Source: Siniperca chuatsi (Eukaryota; Chordata; Actinopteri; Centrarchiformes; Sinipercidae). From it: a stretch of 64,000 nt of DNA. The stretch is from contig NC_058058.1 in assembly GCF_020085105.1 (NCBI RefSeq), positions 3,605,587 to 3,669,586 on the forward strand, given 5' to 3'. Made by a program: the position numbers and the translations under genes. This document shows, one piece after another, positions 1 through 52,627 of the stretch (positions are counted from its first letter, which is position 1; each line of letters opens with the position of its first letter). A model generated the notes under the pieces. That model searched no databases. It worked only from the letters and a program-made list of their open reading frames with translations, and was not told the origin of the DNA.

Positions 1-1372
1 CTCTGGCACAGCGGCAACAACACATTTTCCCTTACATGCAACTCAGAAACCCGACAAATACAAAGAGACTGAAAATTCATTCTCAATCTTGGTAACAGCA
101 AACCCATTCTCCACAGTGTCCATGTACTCACTTTTGTGGAGCTTTCAGTCATATCACATGATCTTCCTCAGCAGATGGAGTTGCTCAGTCGTCACTAAAA
201 TGTAGATTTTTGAATTCCCATTCCTCTGAAAATTTTTGGGACTTCTTGTCCACGTTGGCTTCAAAGGTAAAAGATTCCATGACAACTGGGCAAACTACTT
301 CTGCTGAGGTGTGAGAACAAATTTGAGAGAAACTGTGAGTTTTGATGAAACTTATATTTTGTCTGTGCTTTATTGATCAACAATAAGGAGTATAATGACG
401 CACAGTAAATATTCAATACATTACTATAGAGCATTGAAGACTGCCAGATGTTGATATGGAAATTATTTCTTTCCTCCTTTGCTGAGCTCAGTAACCATGG
501 TAACAAACAGGCATCGCTGCTGAACCATGGCAACAGACAGGTTTCAGTACTAAAGATAAAGTTAAAAGTGACATTTTGTTCCTCTGATGCATTAATGTTT
601 GCTAAGCAAACTACAAACATATCTGAGTTTTAAAGTAAAAAAATACATAACCTAATATGACAGATGTCAGGTTTATATTGTTTTACAGTGTGATAAAGAT
701 TTCTTGTCTAAAACAGAAAGGACCTCGATGGTGTGTGATTATACTGTTCATTCAAAATGAACCCTGTTAACAACTGAGTTACGTATTAAAACTAATCAAA
801 TCAAACCTACTCTTACAGCATGTTGTTTAAATATAACAGCTATGTTTTAAGATAATCATTTGTAATAAAGTAAAGTACTTGATCAAGATCAAGGAAAACC
901 CATGAACAATACTTGGCTCAGTATTTGGGCTGAAATTTAAAAACTTTTCTGAACATTTTCTTCAAAGAGAATACTTTTTTTGCAGTGAAACAAAATGTTT
1001 AACTGAAGAAGATTTTAGTCTGAGACATAATGTGACACAATCAAGCATCACTGTAATTAAATTAAATTCCAATCACTAGTTAAATATTTCAGTAAAGTCT
1101 ACAAGAAAACAGAATTTGGGTTATTAAAGGAGTTAAATGTTCTTATAGTTAACATCCAGTCTGGTTCTCCCTCCCTGTACCACAGTGACAGAAAGACAGC
1201 TCACTGACTTTGATAACAACTCACCTAACACATTCACAGTTATGAGGTAAAGTGTTTAACAGTCAGAAACTCCACAAATTTAAAGGTAACCATTTAACCC
1301 TTACTGAATTGTTAAATGTCTTCAAAATCTTTTAAGTCTCTCACAGTAAAATAAAGGCAAAAAAAAAATTTT
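1..1372. repeat. Duplicated spacer block, copy 1
   Basis: No gene is seen here apart from the J relic listed separately. The block recurs almost unchanged near 16,252-17,590, and in variant form near 36,800-38,090 and 43,290-44,710. It carries paired 'ccatggtaac/ccatggcaac' motifs near 495-540. The short reading frames on both strands are preserved in all copies, but I read that as recent duplication, not as coding. Confidence 0.8.
1151..1180 (-). pseudogene. Degenerate light-chain J segment, copy 1
   Basis: On the minus strand this reads like the 3' half of the intact J segments at 48.4-48.9 kb (shared stretch CCAGACTGGATGTT) and abuts a perfect heptamer (plus strand CACAGTG, 1181-1187). 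The part coding for the W-T-F start and the FGGG bulge is lost, and no ACAAAAACC nonamer lies 23 bp away. It is a J relic, not usable for joining. It is not upstream of any constant exon on its strand within the window. Confidence 0.7.
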
Positions 1373-16251: not shown

Positions 16252-17599
16252 CTCTGGCACAGCGGCAACAACACATTTTCCCTTACATGCAACTCAGAAA
16301 CCCGACAAATACAACGAGACAGAAAATTCATTCTCAATCTTGGTAACAGCAAACCCATTCTCCAGAGGGTCCATGTACTCACTTTTGTGGAGCTTTCAGT
16401 CATATCACATGATCTTCCTCAGCAGATGGATTTGCTCAGTCGTCACTGAAATGTAGATTTTCGAATTCCCATTCCTCTGAACATTTTTGGACTTCTTGAC
16501 CACGTTGGCTTCAAAGGTAAAAGATTCCATGACAACTGGGCAAACTACTTCTGCTGAGGTGTGAGAACAAATTTGAGAGAAACTTATATTTTGTCTGTGC
16601 TTTATTGATCAACAATAAGGAGCATAATGACGCACAGTAAATATCCACTACATTACTATAGAGCGTTGAAGACTGCCAGATGTTGATATGGAAATTGTTT
16701 TTTTCCTCCATTGCTGAGCTCAGTAACCATGGTAACAAACAGGCATCGCTGCTGAACCATGGCAACAGACAGGTTTCAGTACTAAAGATAAAGTTAAAAG
16801 TGACATTTTGTTCCTCTGATGCATTAATGTTTGCTAAGCAAACTACAAACATATCTGAGTTTTAAAGTAAAAAAATACATTACCTAATATGACAGATGTC
16901 AGGTTTATATTGTTTTACAGTGTGATAAAGATTTCTTGTCTAAAACAGAAAGGACCTCGATGGTGTGTGATTTTACTGTTCATTCAAAATGAACCCTGTT
17001 AACAACTGAGTTACGTATTAAAACTAATCAAATCAAACCTACTCATACAGCATGTTGTTTAAATATAATAGCTATGTTTTAAGATAATCATTTGTAATAA
17101 AGTAAAGTACTTGATCAAGATCAAGGAAAACCCATGAACAATACTTGGCCCAGTAATTGGGCTGAAATTTAAAAACTTTTCTGAACATTTTCTTCAAAGA
17201 GAATACTGCTTTTGCAGTGAAACAAAATGTTTAACTGAAGAAGATTTTAGTCTGAGATAATGTGACACAATCAAGCATCACTGTAATTAAATTAAATTCC
17301 AATCACTAGTTAAATATTTCAGTAAAGTCTACAAGAAAACAGAATTTGGGTTATTAAAGGAGTTAAATGTTCTTATAGTTAACATCCAGTCTGGTTCTCC
17401 CTCCCTGTTCCACAGTGACAGAAAGACAGCTCACTGACTTTGATAACAACTCACCTAACACATTCACAGTTGTGAGGTTAAGTGTTTAACAGTCAGAAAC
17501 TCCACAAATTTAAAAGTAACCATTTAACCCTTACTGAATTGTTAAATGTCTTCAAAATCTTTTAAGTCTCTCACAGTAAAATAAAGGCAAAAAAGATAT
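16252..17599. repeat. Duplicated spacer block, copy 2
   Basis: Matches 1-1,372 at an offset of about 16.23-16.25 kb; the match continues through the LINE fragment and C4. No gene apart from the J relic. Confidence 0.8.
17381..17410 (-). pseudogene. Degenerate light-chain J segment, copy 2
   Basis: Same relic as at 1151-1180, with the heptamer CACAGTG kept at 17,411-17,417 and the nonamer and FGGG codons lost. A single base differs in the relic. Confidence 0.7.
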
Positions 17600-18072
17600 T
17601 TTGTTGAAGGACCTCAGCCTCCTCAGAAAATAGAGGCGGCTCTGGCCCTTCCTGTAAAGAGCTTGAGTGTTCTTAGCCCAGTCCAGTTTATTGTCCATGT
17701 GTACTCCCAGGTATTTGTAGTCCTCAGCAATGTCCACACTGACCCCTTGGATGGAAACCAGGATCACTGGTGCCTTGGCCCTTCGTAGGTCTACAACCAG
17801 CTCCTTAGACTTAGTCGCTTTGAGCTGCAGATGGTTCTGTTCAAACCATGAGACAAAGTTACCCACCACAGCCCTGTACTCAGACTCATTACCACCGCTG
17901 ATACTTCCCACCACAGCAGAGTCATCAGAAAACATCTGAAGGTGGCAGGACTCTGTGTGGTAGCTGAAGTCTGTGGTGTAGATGGTGAAGAGGAAGGAAG
18001 AGAGGACAGTCCCCTGAGGGGCCCCAGTGTTGCTGACCACACTGTCCGACACACAGTGCTGCAGACGCACGT
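17600..18072 (-). mobile_element. LINE reverse-transcriptase fragment, copy 2
   Basis: Duplicate of 1,373-1,842: an open minus-strand frame of about 170 codons with GTVLSSFLFTIYT, FSDDSA and YKYLGVHMDNKLDW. It was inserted before the 16-kb duplication, since both copies have the same ends. Confidence 0.8.
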
Positions 18073-19078
18073 GCTGCGGTCTGCCAGTCAGGTAGTCAAC
18101 ATCCTGATCACCTGATGTTATGAAATATTAGTAATCTGACTCTGAGACAAACCCAGTAACTGTGGATTTCATGGATCAACTGTTATTATTAAGAAAGTAG
18201 TTATTCCTGTAATCTTACACATGGACGCCACTGATGAGATGAATAGGTCTTTCTTTTTTTCTACATACAGAGACTGTGTTGTCCTAACTTTCATTGGGCC
18301 TGTTATTCTAAAACATTCCTGGGGTTAAAATCTCAGATCACAGTCATGTTGTATCACTTTATGCTGATGATAAAATGCTTTTTTATTTCTAATCCTAAAA
18401 ATTAGAAATCAGACGTTCTAATAATTATTCAGAGACCTGAAACTTACAATCATTTCTAGGTACAAATTAAATCTATACAACATATCTATCTTCATCAAGA
18501 GCAGACTTCAGTGATACAAGATAAATGGGTGGTCTTGTCGGGTCTCTGTAAAGATATTATAAAGAATACGGTCTAGACTTGCTCTATAGGAAAAGTGCAA
18601 TGAATTCTGTTATAAATTGGCGACATATATATAAAATTGAATTGAACTGAATTGGTTTTCTATTAAAATTCTTTAATCATTATGGGTATAGTTACCAAGG
18701 TTCATTAATATCAGACAGACCTGCAACGACAATGAAAATCATTTCCCCAGTCATTAAATTATGAAGAATTGAAATACAAAAAGGATAGTCTTGTTATTAC
18801 CGTGGCTTCATGTCATATACTAACATGCGTTCCTAATACAAAACATATGGCAAAGAAGTCATAAGACTTCACTTCACTTTTATAAATAGAAAATAGAAGG
18901 AAACCAATCTTTGATGACACTTTTATTGTTCTGAAATATTAAAACCTTCAACAATACAACAAGCAAGAAAACATTAATGTTGAAACGTGTATTGAGAGAA
19001 AGAGAGAACCAGAGAGAGGGAGTGCAGACTCAGAGCAGTAGCAGTGTAAAACCAGTAGCAGAGTCCCAGTGCGTCAGG
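18073..19078. other. Spacer downstream of C4
   Basis: Same content as 1,890-2,849: short Y-A-D-D motif near 18,360 and a SINE-like tail at about 18,530-18,660. No gene. Confidence 0.5.
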
Positions 19079-23671: not shown

Positions 23672-24836
23672 GAATCAGAATCAGAATCAGAAATACTTTA
23701 TTGATCCCCAAGGGGAAACTCTTGTTACAGCAGCTCACTATCATGTCAGTGCAGACAGGAATAGAAGTACTAAGCAAAAAATATAATTCACAATAATATA
23801 GTTCAGAAAAGCAATTAAGTACCAAGTTCGTATAAGTATAAAATAAAATAAGTGTAAAATAAGATAAGTGTGAGGTACCAAGTGGGTTTACCGGTTGATG
23901 ATAATAGTACGGTATAAGGTAATAGTGCATGAACTGTCAAGTTAAGTAAAGCTGATTAAGGTTATAATGAGACGGAGGATATTGCACAGCAGTAATAGAG
24001 GTATGAATAAATATCAATATCAGTAAATTGGGAATTTTAAACTAAAATATTGCACAGCAGTATTAACACAGAATATTGCACAATTATGTCAAGTATTGTA
24101 GTGATGATAATGATCAATGTCCAGTTTAATGACTTAGGGTCATATAGACTGACACTTAGAGGGAGGAGTTAAAGAGTTTGATGGCCATAGGCAGGAATGA
24201 CTTCCTGTGGTGCTCTGTGGTGCATTTTGGGGGATGAGTCTTCCGCTGAAGGTACTCCTTTGTTTGACCAGCACGTCATGGAGTGGGTGGGAGACACTGT
24301 CCAAGATGGCGTGTAGTTTGGCCAGCATCCTCCTCTCTGACACCACCGCCAGAGAGTCCAGCTCCACCCCCATAATGTCACTGGCCTTACGGATCAGTTT
24401 GTTGAGCCTGTTAGCGTCCGCTACCCTCAACCTGCTGCCCCAGCTTGCAACAGCATACAGGATAGCACTGGCCACCACAGACTCATAAAACACCTTCAGC
24501 ATTGTCCGGCAGATGTTGAAGGACCTCAGCCTCCTCAGAAAATAGAGGCGGCCCTTCCTATAGAGGGCTTGAGTGTTCTTAGCCCAGTCGAGTTTATGGT
24601 CCATATATAGTCCAAGGTACTTGTAGTCCTCAACAATGTCCACACTGAGCCCCTGGATGGAAACCGGGATCACTGGTGCCTTGGCCCTTCGTAGGTCTAC
24701 AACCAGCTCCTTAGACTATGTCGCATTGAGCTGCAGATGGTTCTGCTCACACCATGAGACAAAGTTACCCACCACAGCCTTGTACTCAGTCTCATCACCA
24801 CCGCTGATACTTCCCACCTCGGCAGAGTCATCAGCC
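23672..24836 (-). mobile_element. LINE 3' portion, Rex1/L2-like
   Basis: The longest copy of this family here. The minus strand runs from the RT region through an open frame of about 177 codons (IPVSIQG, YKYLGLYMDHKLDW, LYFLRRLRSF, the C-terminal SVVASAILYAVASWG and SHPLHDVL) to a 3' UTR ending at a TTCTGA repeat (about 23,672-23,690) beside the CA repeat of V6. 5'-truncated, with the 5' end fused directly to C-flanking spacer. The frame is broken near its upper end. Confidence 0.85.
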
Positions 24837-28040: not shown

Positions 28041-31000
28041 AGCCCGAAGGAGCGACGCGGGCCGTCCTCCCGTGGACCCACCACCCGCAGGAGGATCCGT
28101 AAGGGGCGGTGCAGAGAGATCTGGGCGGCAGTCGAAGGCAGGGGCTTGGCACCAGATCTCCGGACACAGAAACTGGCTCTAGGGACATGGAATGTCACTT
28201 CGCTGGGGGAAGGAGCCTGAGCTTGTGCGGGAGGTTGAGCGTTACCGGCCAGATATAGTCGGCCTCGCCTCCACGCACAGCCTGGGCTCTGGAACCCGTC
28301 TCCTCGAGAGGGGCTGGTCGCTCCATTTCTCTGGCGTTGCCGGCGGGGAGAGGCGGCGGGCTGGTGTGGGCCTGCTCATAACCCCACAGCTCAGCCGTCA
28401 CGTGTTGGAGTTTACCCCAGTGAACGAGAGGGTCGCGTCCCTCCACCTCCGGGTGGGGACAGGTCTCTCACCGTTGTGGCGGCCCCACGGGCCGAACAGC
28501 AGTGCAGAGTACCAGGCCTTCTTGGAGTCCCTGGGAGGGGTACTAGATAGTGCACCACCCGGGACTCCGTTGTTCTACTGGGGACTTCAACGCCCACGTG
28601 GGCAACGACAGTGACACCTGGAGAGGGGTAATCGGAAGGAACGGCCCCTGATCTGAACCCGAGCGGTGTTCAGTTGTTGGACTTCTGTGCTAGTTACAGT
28701 TTGTCCATAACTAACACCATGTTCAAGCACAAGGGTGTCCATCAGTGCACGTGGCACCAGGACACCTAGGTCGGAGGTCGATGATCGACTTTGTTGTCGT
28801 ATCATCTGACCTCCGCCGCGTGTCTTGGACACTCGGGTGAAGAGAGGGGCGGAGCTGTCAACCGATCACCACCTGGTGGTGAGTTGGATCCGCTGGCGGG
28901 GGAGGAAGCCGGACAGACTTGGCAGGCCCAAGCGTATCGTGAGGGTCTGCTGGGAACGTCTGGCGGAGCCCTCTGTCAGCAGGGTCTACAACTCACACCT
29001 CCGGGAGAGCTTCTCCCAGATCCCGGGGGAGGTTGGGGACATTGAGTCCGAGTGGACCATGTTTTCCACCTCCATTGTCGATGCGGCGGCTCGTAGCTGT
29101 GGTCGCAAGGTTTCTGGTGCCTGTCGCGCGGCAATCCCGAACACGGTGGTGGACGCCGGAAGTAAGGGATGCCGTCAGGCTGAAGAAAGAGTCCTATCGG
29201 GCCTTGTTGGCTCGTGGGACTCCCGAGGCAGCTGACAAGTACCGGCAGGCTAAGCGTGCTGCAGCCCGTGCGGTCACAGAGGCCAAAACTTAGGACTGGG
29301 AGAGGTTCGGAGAGGCCATGGAGGAGGACTATCGGTCAGCCTCAAAGAAATTCTGGCAAATCGTCCGACGGCTCAGGAGGGGGAAGCAGTTCTTCAGCAA
29401 CACCTTGTACGGTGCGGGTGGAGAGCTGTTGACCTCGACTGGGGATGTTGTCGGACGGTGGAAGGAATACTTTGAGGATCTCCTCAATCCCGCTGTCACG
29501 TCTTCCGAAGAGGAAGCGGAGGCTGGGGACCCGGAGGTGGACTCATCCATCACCCTGGCCGAAGTCACTGAGGTTGTTGGCAAGCTCCTTGGTGGCAAGG
29601 CTTCGGGGGTGGATGAGATCCGTCCTGAGTATCTTAAGTCTCTGGATGTTGTGGGACTGTCTTGGCTGACACGTCTCTGCAACATCGCGTGGCGGTCTGG
29701 GACAGTGCCTCTGGACTGGCAGACCGGGGTGGTGGTCCCTCTGTATAAGAAGGGGGACCGGAGGGTGTGTTCCAATCACAGAGGGATCACACTTCTCAGC
29801 CTCCCCGGTAAGGTCTATTCCAGGGTACTGGAGAGGAGAATTGGTCCGATAGTCGAACCTCGGATTCAGGAGGAGCAGAGTGGTTTTCGTCCCGGTCGTG
29901 GAACACTGGACCAGCTCTATACTCTCCATCGGGTGCTCGAGGGTTCATGGAGTTTGCCCAACCAGTCCACATGTGCTTTGTGGATCTGGAGAAGGCATTC
30001 GACCGTGTGCCCCGGGCGCTTTGTGGGGAGTGCTCTGGGAGTATGGGGTCCGGGGCCCTTTGCTAAGGGCTGTCCGGTCCCTGTATAACCGAGCAGGAGC
30101 TGTGTTCGCATTGCCGGCAGTAAGTCAGACCTGTTCCCGGTGCATGTTGGACTCCGCCAGGGCTGCCCTTTGTCACCCGGTTCTGTTCATAATTTATATG
30201 GACAGAATTTCTAGGCGCAGTCAGGGGCCGGAGGGTGTCCGGTTTGGGAACCACAGGATCTCATCTCTGCTGTTTGCAGATGATGTCGTTCTGATAGCTT
30301 CTTCAAACCAGGACCTGCAGCATGCACTGGGACGGTTTGCAGCCGAGTGTGAAGCAGCTGGGATGAGAATCAGCTCTTCCAAATCTGAGGCCATGGTTCT
30401 TGACCGGAAAAAGGTGGTTTGCTCTCTTCGCGTGGGTGGGGAGTCCTTGCCCCAAGTGGAGGAGTTTAAGTATCTCGGGGTCTTGTTCACGAGTGAGGGA
30501 CGGATGGAGCGTGAGATTGACAGGCGGATCGGTGCAGCGCCTGCAGTGATGCGGGCGCTGTATCGGACCGTTGTGGTAAAGAAGGAGCTGAGTCGAAAGA
30601 CAAAGCTCTCGATTTATCGGTCAATCCACGCCCTGCCCTCACCTATGGTCATGAGCTTTGGGTAGTGACCGAAAGGACAAGATCGCGGATACAAGCGCCG
30701 AAATGGGCTTCCTCCGCCGAGTGGCTGGGCGCCCCTTAGAGATAGGGTGAGGAGCTCAGTCACACGGGGAGCTCGAGTAGAGCCGCTGCTCCTCCACGCC
30801 GAGAGGAGCCAGCTGAGGTGGCTAGGGCATCTGATCCGGATGCCTCCTGGACGCCTCCCTCGGGAGGTGTTCTGGGCATGTCCCACCGGGAGGCGGCCCC
30901 GGGGAAGACCCAGGACACGCTGGAGGGACTATGTCTCTCGGCTGGCCTGGGAACGCCTCGGGATCCCCCCGGAGGAGCTGGAGGAAGTGTCTGGGGCGAA

Positions 31001-36800: not shown

Positions 36801-38095
36801 GGCTGGCCCTCTCTGGCGCAACGGCAACAACACATTTTCCCTTACATGCAACCCAGAAACCCAACAAAAACAAAGAGACTGAAAGTTAATTCTTAATCTT
36901 GGTAACAGCAAACCCATTCTCCACAGGGTCCATGTTCTCACTTTTGTGGAGCTTTCAGTCATATCACATGATCTTCCTCAGCAGATGGAGTTGCTCAGTT
37001 GTCACTGAAATGTAGATTTTCGAATTCCCATTCCTCTGAACATTTCTGGGACTTCTTGTCCACGTTGGCTTCAAAGGTAAAAGATTCCATGACAACTTGG
37101 CAAACTACTTCTGCTGAGGTGTGAGAACAAATTTGAGAGAAACTTATATTTTGTCTGTGCTTTATTGATCAACAATAAGGAGCATACGGACGCACAGTAA
37201 ATATTCAGTACATTAGTATAGAGCGTTGAAGACTGCCAGATGTTGATATGGAAATTGTTTCTTTCCTCCTTTGCTGAGCTCAGTAACCATGGTAACAAAC
37301 AGGCATCGCTGCTGAACCATGGCAACAGACAGGTTTCAGTACTAAAGATAAAGTTGAAAGTGACATTTTGTTCCTCTGATGCATTAATGTTTTATAAGCA
37401 AACTACAAACATATCTGAGTTTTAAAGTAAAATAATGCATTACCTAATATGACAGATGTCAGGTTTATATTGTTTTACCTACTCATACAGCATGTTGTTT
37501 AAATATAACAGCTATGTTTTAAGATAATCATTTGTAATAAAGTAACGTACTTGATCAAGATCAAGGAAAACCCATGAACAATACTTGGCCCAGTATTTGG
37601 GCTGAAATTTAAAAACTTTTCTGAACATTTTCTTCAGAGAGCATACTTTTTTTGGAATCTTAAAATCTAGAAACTTTTGAAATTAAAATTGCAGTGTAAC
37701 AAAATGTTTAACTGAAGAAGATTTTAGTCTGAGACATAATGTGACATACTCAAGAATCACTGTAATTAAATTAAATTCCAATCATCAGCTAAAATATTTC
37801 AGTAACGTCTACAGTTATGAAATCAAGCAGAAAAAAACAGAATTTGGGTTATTAAAGGAGTTAAATGTTCTTTTAGTTAACATCCAGTCTGGTTCTCCCT
37901 CCCTGTACCACAGTGACAGAAAGACAGCTCACTGACTTTGACAACAACTCACCTAACACATTCACAGTTATGAGGTAAAGTGTTTAACAGTCAGAAACTC
38001 CACAAATTTAAAGGTAACCATTTAACCCTCACTGAATTGTTAAATGTCTTCAAAATCTTTTAAATCTCTCATAGTAAAATAAAGGCAAAAACAAA
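36801..38095. repeat. Duplicated spacer block, copy 3
   Basis: Matches 1-1,340 with an internal deletion near 37,480. The J relic is listed separately. The LINE fragment that follows in copies 1 and 2 is absent here, so this lineage split before that LINE insertion. No other gene. Confidence 0.7.
37879..37908 (-). pseudogene. Degenerate light-chain J segment, copy 3
   Basis: Same relic with intact heptamer CACAGTG (37,909-37,915), no nonamer. Confidence 0.7.
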
Positions 38096-44494: not shown

Positions 44495-44524
44495 TACATC
44501 CAGTCTGGTTCTCCCTCCCTGTAC
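44495..44524 (-). pseudogene. Degenerate light-chain J segment, copy 4
   Basis: Same relic; heptamer CACAGTG at 44,525-44,531, no nonamer. Confidence 0.7.
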
Positions 44525-44917
44525 CACAGTGACAGAAAGACAGCTCACTGACTTTGACAGCAACTCACCTAAAACATTCATAGTTATGAGGTAAAGTGTT
44601 TAACAGTCAGAAACTCCACAAATTTAAAGGTAACCATTTAACCCTTACTGAATTGTTAAACGTCTTCAAAATCTTTTAAGTCTCTCATAGTAAAATAAAG
44701 ACAAAATGAAATTTCTTGGGAATACACTGTACAACACATCCAGCCGGATAAACACACAAAAATGATCAGAGATGAATATTAACTGCAAAACACAACAAGA
44801 CACCTTGACTAGTGATAAAATGAATAAAAATCACTGTGTTGAAACTTCAGTATGTATGTATGTATGACAATGATGTTGATTTTGTGAATTTAGGGGAATT
44901 TAGACAACAGAGGACAT

Positions 44918-47278: not shown

Positions 47279-47613
47279 TCAGGACTGGGAACACTGGTCT
47301 CTCCTCAGTGTCTCTGAGACCAGAGTCTGGCAGCCCTGGGTGGCCTCACAGGTCACAGAGCCCACCTTCCTCCACTGGTCTGCAGGGAGCCTCAGGGTGC
47401 TGCTCCAGCTGTAGCGGCCGTCCTTCTCCAGCACCCCGGGGCTCCTGCTCTCCTCCCAGCTGCTGCTGCTGCTGCTGCTGCTGCCGTCCACCTTCCAGGC
47501 CAGACTCCAGTCTGAGGGGAAGCCCTTGTTGGCCAGGCACATGAGCGTGGCCTTCCCCTGCTGCAGCTCCTCACTGGAGGGGGGCAGCACCGTCAGGGTG
47601 GGACGGGCATCAC
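47279..47613 (-). CDS. Light-chain constant exon C7, intact
   Basis: The only undamaged constant exon. Acceptor cctag|GTGATG; spliced from J (ending in phase 1, G-G-A-A) it continues [16 protein letters not shown] for about 110 residues. C1-set features: first Cys in [32 protein letters not shown], second Cys in SVTCEAT, and a terminal RRDQCSQS whose Cys would link to the heavy chain. An eight-Ser run (AGC repeats) sits in the loop after KVDG, against five in sisters. Two J segments lie 0.83 and 1.2 kb upstream on the same strand. Kappa-like type (teleost L1/L3 group) is inferred from sequence style. Confidence 0.95.
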
Positions 47614-48442
47614 CTAGGAGACACCAATCAGCTTAGAGGACAGGGACCACACAGCTGTCAATCAACCACCAGACACCTGGACACCGTTACTGTGTGAGAG
47701 CTGATTTTCTCCTTTAAGGAGTTTCTGTCAGATGGTTTTTCTGCTCCACCAGTCACTCACTCACACATTGTTTCACTTCCCTTTAAGAAGCCTCTCATGC
47801 ATATCAGCGCAGAGAGAATCATCATACAGAATGAGCTGAAATATGTCAAACTACACTGGAAATAAAAGGAGCAGATTTGGCAAAATGTTCAAACTTTGTC
47901 ATCAAAATCATCAAAAATCTTAGCTATACATTACTTTAAAGTATTTAGTGGAAACATAAACAATACAAAAAATTAATTGACAACAATCAAATGTTCTTTA
48001 TGTGGATTTCAATCATCATTACCAAACTGTTTGAAACAATACATGGCACGACAAATTGATTTTGCACATTTTGAAATACCCATCTTTGACTTCACTCTGT
48101 TCACTTTTCTTGAAGAAAGTTATTTTTTAATTAATAATAACAACAGTTATAATTTGGGTTTACAATTTTAAACAAATCAAGGCAAACTCTTTTACATTAA
48201 GATTAAAGTTTTATCCTTTCTACACTTCCAGCTGTTTGAATTTCAGTATGACAGGAATTTGTAAAGAAAGTTTAGTAAAGCTGCTCTGAGTTAGCCTCCA
48301 TGATAAAGGAGGAGAAATTCAAACATGAATACCTAATATTTTATAATAAAAACAAGATGTATTTATCTGCCTCAAAAATCCAAAAACTGAATTAAAACAT
48401 TAATTTACAATATTATTTTAAGTATTTGTGCAGATACTTACT
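47614..48442 (-). other. J-C intron of the intact cluster
   Basis: About 0.83 kb between J2 and C7, with good donor (A|GTAAGT) and acceptor. The C-proximal 200 nt carry several motifs typical of Ig enhancers (next entry). The rest is AT-rich with no gene; the frame at 47,977-48,171 has no recognisable content. Confidence 0.7.
47648..47806. promoter_or_regulatory. Candidate intronic light-chain enhancer
   Basis: Clustered sites: E-boxes CAGCTG (near 47,651) and CACCTG (near 47,675), an ETS-IRF composite match GGAAGTGAAA on the minus strand (47,771-47,780), and an octamer-like ATGCATAT (near 47,796-47,803). Such E2A, PU.1/IRF4 and Oct sites mark known kappa and lambda enhancers. Single sites of this size occur by chance; the cluster and position make it a candidate only. 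Confidence 0.4.
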
Positions 48443-48480
48443 TCCAACATCCAGTCTGGTTCCTCCACCAAAAGTCCACC
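48443..48480 (-). CDS. Light-chain J segment J2, intact
   Basis: 38 nt on the minus strand reading [12 protein letters not shown], with the FGXG bulge, then a splice donor A|GTAAGTATC. Identical in protein to J1. It is the C-proximal J of the working cluster, 829 nt before C7. Upstream on the minus strand is a canonical 23-spacer recombination signal. Confidence 0.95.
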
Positions 48481-48519
48481 ACAGTGATACAAACTCATTG
48501 AGCCGCCGTACAAAAACCT
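48481..48519 (-). other. J2 recombination signal, 23-bp spacer
   Basis: On the plus strand: CACAGTG (48,481-48,487), 23-bp spacer, ACAAAAACC (48,511-48,519). Satisfies the 12/23 rule with the V signals; since both open toward higher coordinates, joining requires inversion. Confidence 0.95.
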
Positions 48520-48826
48520 CTCACTGTAGAGAGACACGGCTCTCTGACTTTGACAGACTGAACTAAACCTACTGGCCCTCAAGATGCAACTTTACCATTA
48601 AAATTGGAAACAATAACTTCTTCTCTGGCTTAATATTTTATCTTCGTTGGAATGAGTTTTATTTAATTTTTATTGCTGAAGTGAACTTTGTATCTTAAAT
48701 ATTTGTACAAAAATTAGACGTTACAACGAAAAGGCATCAATAGTGTTTCAGGCATGCTGAATATTAAAGAGTTAAATAGAAAAATAGCTCCTGAAACAAT
48801 ACAAATTTTGAGAACATTTGACTTAC
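48520..48826. other. J1-J2 spacer
   Basis: About 0.3 kb, AT-rich, no gene; ends of about 70 nt after each J signal are identical. Confidence 0.5.
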
Positions 48827-48864
48827 TTCCAACATCCAGTCTGGTTCCTCCACCAAAAGTCCAC
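48827..48864 (-). CDS. Light-chain J segment J1, intact
   Basis: Same 38-nt sequence and reading as J2 ([12 protein letters not shown]) and the same donor start (GTAAG). It lies 384 bp farther from C7. J1, its signal and flanks form a roughly 115-bp perfect direct repeat of J2, so the two add no coding diversity but offer two joining targets. Confidence 0.95.
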
Positions 48865-48903
48865 CACAGTGATACAAACTCATTGAGCCGCCGTACAAAA
48901 ACC
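48865..48903 (-). other. J1 recombination signal, 23-bp spacer
   Basis: CACAGTG (48,865-48,871), 23 bp, ACAAAAACC (48,895-48,903) on the plus strand; identical to J2's. Confidence 0.95.
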
Positions 48904-49270
48904 TCTCACTGTAGAGAGACACGGCTCTCTGACTTTGACACAAACAAACTCACCAAAATTAGTCTCTGTTTGTAAAATGTATTCAGATAAAATGAAAAGT
49001 AACAATAAAAACAACAGTAACAAATTTCCACACAAATGTTTATTTTATATATATTGATTCCCTCTTAAATTTATAGTAATTGCTCCAGCAATACACTTAA
49101 ATAAGAAAGGAGACAATTGGAAACAAAATATGTCTAGAAGAATAAAGCCAAAATCATGTAAAACAGGATTTGAAAAATTCGTAATCACTATTCTGACAAA
49201 CTGATTGATCCATTGATAAACAGCATCATCAGAGTCCCTGCTGGAGTCAGTCAGAGCATTTCCATAGAGA
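48904..49270. other. J1-V12 spacer
   Basis: No gene. From about 49,037 it matches the region 5' of V8 (31,101-31,330). Confidence 0.65.
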
Positions 49271-49400
49271 GCCACTTTGCATCAGCAGCACCATGCTCCA
49301 GTGCTCTGGGAGAGTTTATAGTCCTGAGAGTTGAACACTGGATGACTGACAGCTGTCCTTCATGACAACAGAAGCCACAGAAATCCTCCTCATCAAAAAC

Positions 49401-49874
49401 ATGACTTTGATCTCCGTCCTCATCTGGACTCTCCTCTGCTGCTGCTTCACAGGTAAAGTCCAGAGAATCAAGCTCCTCTCCTCTGTGAACATCCGTCCCT
49501 CTGAAATGAAGCCGACAAAACCATGACGCTGCTTTATGTTTTTGTCTCTGTATCCTCAGAGTCCAGAGGCCAGGTCACAGTGACTCAGCCTGGAGCAGTG
49601 AGCTCTGCTCTGGGAGGCTCCGTCTCCATCAGCTGTAGGACCAGTCAGAATGTTTATAGCTCAAACTATTTAGCCTGGTACCAACAGAGAGATGGAGAAA
49701 CTCCTAAACTCCTCATTTACTATGCTAGCACTCGAGCATCAGGGATTCCAGGTCGTTTTACAGGCAGTGGATCAAACTCTGACTTCACTCTGACCATCAG
49801 TGGAGTCCAGACTGAAGATGCAGCAGTTTACTACTGTCAGAGTTTTCATGTTATCAACAGTCAGTATGTGTTCA
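49401..49874 (+). CDS. Light-chain V gene V12, intact
   Basis: The V nearest to the intact J segments: its leader ATG is about 0.5 kb from the J1 signal. Leader 49401-49452, V exon 49560-49874, octamer-like CTTTGCAT at 49,275. Short CDR1 class [13 protein letters not shown]2 YAS, CDR3 starts [10 protein letters not shown]. Domain residues intact. Joining to J1 would invert only about 1 kb. The frame runs on past the signal because the usual TGA there is TGG; this has no bearing on the rearranged gene. Confidence 0.95.
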
Positions 49875-49902
49875 CACAGTGGAAAAGTGTTGTACAAAAA
49901 CC
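49875..49902 (+). other. V12 recombination signal, 12-bp spacer
   Basis: CACAGTG, 12-bp spacer of variant sequence shared only with V16 (gaaaagtgttgt), ACAAAAACC. Confidence 0.95.
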
Positions 49903-49979
49903 TCCCTCAGTCAGACTGAACAGAAACTGAAGTGACTGCTGCAGCTGGAAGCTTCTGCAGAGACTGATACACTTCACTG

Positions 49980-52031: not shown

Positions 52032-52599
52032 ATGATGATGTCACTGATTCTACTGCTGGCCACCCTGGGGCTCCTTGTTCAGGGTGAGACTCTCTTCTGA
52101 AAACTTTGCTTCAGGATGCAACCAGGTTCACCACAATGACGTTCTGCTGTGATGGAGAAACACTGAAACGAGCAGCATTTACCTTCTTCCATCTACTCTC
52201 CATGTTAACGAAATTAGACTCTTCTGTTTGGATGTTGATCATCTATCTCCAAAGTGGATTTGTCTCAATAACCCTTCTGCTCTTTTTCACGTTTTCCAGA
52301 TTCATCAGGAGAAATCATCCTGACTCAGTCTCCTGAATCTGAGTCTTTTGTTCCAGGACAGACTGTCTCTATCAGATGTAAAGCCAGTTCAAGTGTTGGT
52401 ACTTGCCTCAACTGGTACCTTCAGAAACATGGAGAAGCTCCCAAACTCCTGATTTATTATTCTACAACTCGTCAGTTTGGAGTTTCAGATCGTTTTAGTG
52501 GAAGTGGATCTGGGACTGACTTCACTCTGACCATCAGTGGAGTCCAGACTGAAGATACAGGAGATTATTATTGTCAGCACTGTTACAGCTGGCCATTCA
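52032..52599 (+). CDS. Light-chain V gene V13, divergent family, intact
   Basis: Leader 52032-52083 codes [17 protein letters not shown], donor AGG|GTGAG; V exon 52300-52599 after ttttccag. The mature domain reads [13 protein letters not shown], Cys in [40 protein letters not shown], second Cys in DYYCQHC, CDR3 [10 protein letters not shown]. It resembles classical vertebrate kappa V genes ([12 protein letters not shown]) more than its neighbours do. Its intron is about twice as long (216 nt). An extra Cys lies in CDR1 (VGTCLNW) and another in CDR3, so a CDR1-CDR3 disulfide is possible. Single copy in the window. Confidence 0.95.
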
Positions 52600-52627
52600 C
52601 ACAGTGATTCAACGTCGTACAAAAACC
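52600..52627 (+). other. V13 recombination signal, 12-bp spacer
   Basis: CACAGTG, 12 bp (attcaacgtcgt), ACAAAAACC; canonical, spacer ending shared with the main family. Confidence 0.95.

Follow-up and report, generated by a model that had tools for sequence, protein, structure and literature searches.

Composition of the locus

The window, a 64,000-nucleotide stretch of the Siniperca chuatsi genome (contig C17, positions 3605587-3669586), contains a light-chain constant exon, C7, two J segments on the same strand and an oppositely oriented V gene, V12 (Table 1). C7 matched the Pfam C1-set domain (E = 3.8e-14) and the V12 exon the V-set domain; antibody light-chain chains were among the best C7 matches in 7050 PDB sequences, the top match being labelled an IgA1 heavy chain. 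The two J segments are identical over a 120 bp stretch that includes the recombination signal, which in each case reads exactly CACAGTG-23-ACAAAAACC. In its anatomy, C7-J-J-V12 is a self-contained teleost kappa-type cluster, one of many.

C, J and V places were located by BLAST and a J profile. All 16 V places in the window, 15 of a main family and one of a second family, lie on the plus strand and flank C7 on both sides, in agreement with the initial annotation, which had placed every V gene opposite C7 and to its left and right. Seven of the 15 main-family V genes are intact under strict criteria and ten under lenient ones. Exact recombination signals in the window, 12 with a 12-spacer and two with a 23-spacer, share a single orientation, and 200 dinucleotide shuffles yielded none. 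The second-family V (52291-52627, plus strand) has an open exon and an exact 12-spacer signal; its four relatives in the surrounding 260 kb have poor signals, as judged from a scan confined near the exon end.

Table 1 Features of the window (positions are those of the window)
Feature	Position	Strand	Remarks
C1	2850..3164	-	Internal stop; acceptor AG kept; no intact J
C2	6501..6823	-	Frameshift and early stop; acceptor AG kept; no intact J
C3	10177..10501	-	Frameshift and early stop; acceptor AG kept; no intact J
C4	19079..19393	-	Stop; acceptor AG lost; no intact J
C5	22041..22349	-	Frameshifts and early stop; acceptor AG kept; no intact J
C6	32708..32801	-	Fragment
C7, kappa-type light-chain constant exon	47279..47613	-	Acceptor and frame intact (BLAST, translation)
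C8	53980..54300	-	Open frame; canonical acceptor AG reads AA; no intact J
C7-proximal J	48442..48479	-	Donor gtaagt
23-spacer signal of C7-proximal J	48480..48518	-	Exact consensus
Second J of C7 unit	48827..48864	-	Sequence and J profile
23-spacer signal of second J	48865..48903	-	Exact consensus
V12 leader exon	49401..49452	+	Further in-frame ATG upstream at 49362
V12 exon	49560..49874	+	Open frame
V12 12-spacer signal	49875..49902	+	Exact consensus
J relic	1151..1197	-	J profile
J relic	17381..17428	-	J profile
J relic	37879..37925	-	J profile
J relic	44496..44542	-	J profile
V gene (exon and signal) left of C7	4267..4618	+	Intact; adjoins decayed C1
V gene (exon and signal) right of C7	62321..62672	+	Intact; rightmost found in window

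Decayed constant exons and J relics

BLAST with C7 located eight C-like places in the window, all on the minus strand, whose frames, stops and acceptors we read by eye from translations. Only C7 combines an acceptor, a full frame and an intact J, and to that extent its description as the sole such exon in the window held. C8 carries alternative in-frame AGs 9 and 12 nt into its exon and may not be dead. An early stop and a homology end-point are common to C2, C3, C5 and a copy at 3521235 outside the window, so that C2, C3 and C5 look like copies of one decayed ancestor. Four J relics, overlooked in the initial annotation, matched the J profile with E values of 4.8e-5 to 1.6e-4; inspected by eye, these four lack the nonamer, the FGxG motif and the donor.

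LINE-type reverse transcriptase pieces lie between units at window positions 29294-30085, 17555-18124, 24143-24712 and 1322-1858. RVT_1 scored above the cut-off at 17555-18124, part of which also matches ALKBH8_N, and just below it at 29294-30085; 24143-24712 matches only ALKBH8_N, and 1322-1858 was assigned because its translation resembles that of 17552-18127.

Complete J-C units in the surrounding 260 kb

We joined neighbouring stretches into 260 kb of C17 (3430001-3689500) and searched them in the same way, defining a complete J-C unit as an intact C with at least one intact J. Five such units are present, with C at 3457665, 3510076, 3586791 and 3600516, and C7. The nearest to the window has its C at 3600516-3600843 and its J segments at 3601668 and 3602029; the C ends 4.7 kb, and the J segments lie 3.5-3.9 kb, to the left of the window start. 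Three further places are partial: at 3553236 a C with a frameshifted end accompanies two intact J segments, at 3487187 an intact C has a truncated J, and the C at 3582948 has an acceptor and full frame with no J. In total the 260 kb hold 55 V places, 10 intact J segments (two of them C7's) and 31 C places. All 55 V places are on the plus strand, the 31 C places and 12 J hits are on the minus strand, and the array continues past the 260 kb, with a V at 3693051.

Beyond the known J segments, the J profile recovered one truncated J (3488325) and nine decayed relics, among them the four in the window; most hits of lower significance (E > 0.03) coincide with V signals. This sensitive search found no unrecognised intact J in the J-less units of the 260 kb. 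By acceptor and N-terminus, read by eye, the C exons across C17:3440066-3687882 fall into two subtypes, GDARP and GRVVP-like. The GRVVP-like subtype is mostly decayed, its J type is intact only at 3458882 among the J segments found, and the nine relics resemble that J type by eye.

A sister array on the same chromosome

A second array lies at C17:1.58-1.80 Mb, ~1.8-2.1 Mb from the window and in the same orientation. We searched the species' own genome (719 Mb, 65 contigs) with one J, scoring 40 of 45 candidates, and obtained at least 40 J matches: 10 in the window's array, at least 26 in the sister array and at least four on contig C15. The sister array also has at least 14 stop-free C1-set matches, with 150 candidates scored out of 219, and at least 45 V matches, with 150 scored out of 446. 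Among the matches listed there, all 45 V are on the plus strand, and all 26 J and all 14 C are on the minus strand. J segments and stop-free C exons are commoner in the sister array than in the window's.

One sister-array unit was fetched; J and acceptor intactness were checked in that unit, the other matches being counted as matches. It consists of a C, two J segments and an inverted V whose exon is 77% identical to that of V12 over 216 aligned positions. With its C at +0, its J segments lie at ~+1.17 and ~+1.55 kb and its leader at ~+2.1 kb, nearly the spacing of C7-J-J-V12, which is at odds with the initial annotation's view that the locus departs from self-contained clusters. The C7 unit is an ordinary fish light-chain cluster, one of several on the same chromosome.

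Joining geometry

Since the signals of V and J share one orientation along the chromosome, each join inverts the intervening DNA. We simulated joins of eight V genes from both sides with the two J segments of C7, and in all 16 the V, J and C7 came to lie in order on one strand, bearing out the earlier claim that joining to C7 is inversional from either side. The inverted stretch ranged from 1.0 to 44 kb, and the C7 exon followed the joint by 865 or 1250 bp. Untrimmed joints were out of frame in all 16 cases; with 0-6 nt trimmed per side, 16 of 49 combinations were in frame through the end of C7 for each of the 14 pairs in this test, which is the usual one third (V7950, with two signal mismatches, entered only the first simulation run).

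From this geometry we infer that, in this species, RAG would join V12 to one of C7's J segments through an inversion of 1.0-1.4 kb, after which transcription from the V12 promoter would yield a V-J-C7 message. The same J segments could be reached, by longer inversions, from V genes of the clusters to the left and right, and V12 could in turn join J segments of other clusters. The inversions of about 45 kb proposed in the initial annotation are thus possible, but they are not forced, since V genes in roughly the left third of the window lie nearer to the J-J-C just beyond the window's edge than to C7.

V genes are intact more often than the C exons of the same J-less units

Scoring by eye identified 7 intact C exons among the 31 C places of the 260 kb, the copies not being independent, and among the 50 main-family V genes, five second-family V being set aside, 30 are intact by strict and 34 by lenient criteria. 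To compare within units, we matched every C to the nearest main-family V on its right, giving 29 units; the C places at 3480009 and 3687580 have no V partner and 21 V are not directly preceded by a C. In the 23 units without an intact J, only the V is intact in 12, both are intact in two, neither in nine and only the C in none (exact McNemar P = 0.0005). Collapsing three copies of one lineage leaves 12 versus 0 of 20, and scoring as intact the copy at 3521235, which we scored as broken and which lacks only the last two C residues, gives 11 versus 0. In the six units with an intact J, both are intact in four, the C alone in one and the V alone in one. The split of 12 to 0 suggests that V genes outlast their own J-C because other clusters can make use of them. 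In 19 of the 23 J-less units, the V module's homology to the C7 unit starts exactly at window position 49204, a common start suggesting that the absence of J was for the most part passed on when units were copied and did not arise many times over.

The 40 copies of the V module (~49250-49975) in C17:3430001-3689500 hardly differ in their promoter region, leader, intron or frameworks. Nucleotide diversity in 30 bp bins is mostly 0.002-0.04 outside the CDRs and reaches ~0.20, ~0.08 and ~0.17 over CDR1, CDR2 and CDR3, which thus form islands of diversity in a homogenised module (the alignment is unreliable past ~49980). With a 100 bp leader query, 42 places matched at 95-100% identity, 40 along its full length. 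When non-synonymous and synonymous differences were pooled over 36 V exons, their ratio was 1.02 overall, 0.61 for frameworks and 0.89 for CDRs, hence not above one in the CDRs, with synonymous differences eightfold higher in CDRs than in frameworks (0.24 versus 0.03); CDR1 length differences and multiply changed codons make these ratios unfit as a test of selection.

Competing explanations

We consider it highly probable that C7 and V12 belong to a complete V-J-J-C cluster of the ordinary sort, within a teleost kappa-type array which we provisionally call L1-like. The initial annotation had instead treated C7 as the sole surviving J-C target, to which most V genes join by long inversions, unlike the self-contained clusters of fish. 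Inside the window no other intact J was found, and we dropped this reading once the flanks had been joined and four other complete J-C units had appeared in the 260 kb. As the nearest of these stands just outside the window start, the appearance of a single survivor is a window-edge effect; the initial annotation's own suggestion of looking for J segments beyond the window edges leads to J segments within 4 kb. With at least 26 further J matches in the sister array, and C7 and V12 themselves making up a self-contained cluster, a single target is very improbable indeed. On the reading we prefer, the neighbouring units in the window would be copies that lost their J segments and whose C exons decayed, with some of their V genes remaining fit for use, and these V genes were probably retained for joining to the J-C of other clusters.

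A serious alternative to such retention is gene conversion: V genes beside decayed units may be intact merely through conversion or recent duplication, standing unused while joining takes place within complete clusters. The near uniformity of the V module, intron and near flanks included, and the 42 near-identical leader places are what such renewal would leave. Against it stand the diversity of the CDRs within that uniform module, as expected under selection for variety, and the inter-cluster joins documented for zebrafish in passages of PMC3014032, and we rate it as rather unlikely. Less likely still, J-less C exons could themselves be spliced from another cluster's J after inversion: C8 could be reached through its alternative AGs and the C at 3582948 through its acceptor and full frame, but in all 16 simulated joins to C7's J segments the C7 exon is itself close behind the joint. 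It is similarly a long shot that the window's array is changing from clusters into a reservoir of V genes that have lost J and C, which might act as a distal, translocon-like V bank and join J segments of the sister array through inversions of megabase size. Such joining is conceivable because the window's array lies upstream of the sister array in the J-C reading direction, in the same orientation and with ~1.6 Mb between their nearest ends. This array is a well-resolved teleost kappa-type example in which, inside the same J-less units, broken C exons outnumber broken V genes, so that looking in transcripts for V genes from such units would put inter-cluster joining to the test; the analysis also corrects a window-edge artefact.

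Comparison with known systems

The locus has the features of the kappa-type (L1/L3) class: a 12-spacer on V and a 23-spacer on J, V transcriptionally opposite J-C in both arrays, a C1-set constant exon with a V-set variable exon, and tandemly repeated V-J-C units. A translocon, in which a single J-C serves all V genes, does not describe a 260 kb array with five complete J-C units.

The closest parallels are in other teleosts. In the zebrafish data presented in parts of Zimmerman et al. 2008 (PMC3014032), V is likewise opposite J-C and several clusters lie on a chromosome. The same passages report clusters on several chromosomes and inversional inter-cluster joins that skip across C exons, in one case over 81 kb between V and J, as inferred from cDNA fitted to a BAC; inversional joining between clusters is thus already published for that species. 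A review (PMC5192425) writes, where it treats zebrafish clusters, (V4-J-C-V2) and (V2-J-C-V2). Zebrafish is credited with 84 segments genome-wide (PMC3014032, in the portion concerned), whereas here one array holds 55 V and 31 C places, with many decayed C. Torafugu L1/L3 loci, as set out in sections of Fu et al. 2017 (PMC5241823), resemble ours in their V12-23J signals and in V genes opposite a nearby J-C, and an L3 example there has V on both sides of one J-C that are expected to invert; those loci are spread over many scaffolds, whereas ours are confined to a single chromosome as two contiguous arrays. Atlantic cod chromosome 5, according to excerpts of PMC11223323, also bears a large tandem array of mostly inverted V genes, but with approximately equal numbers of each element (104 V, 98 J and 99 functional C), where the 260 kb of ours hold 55 V places, 10 intact J and, among 31 C places, 7 intact ones.
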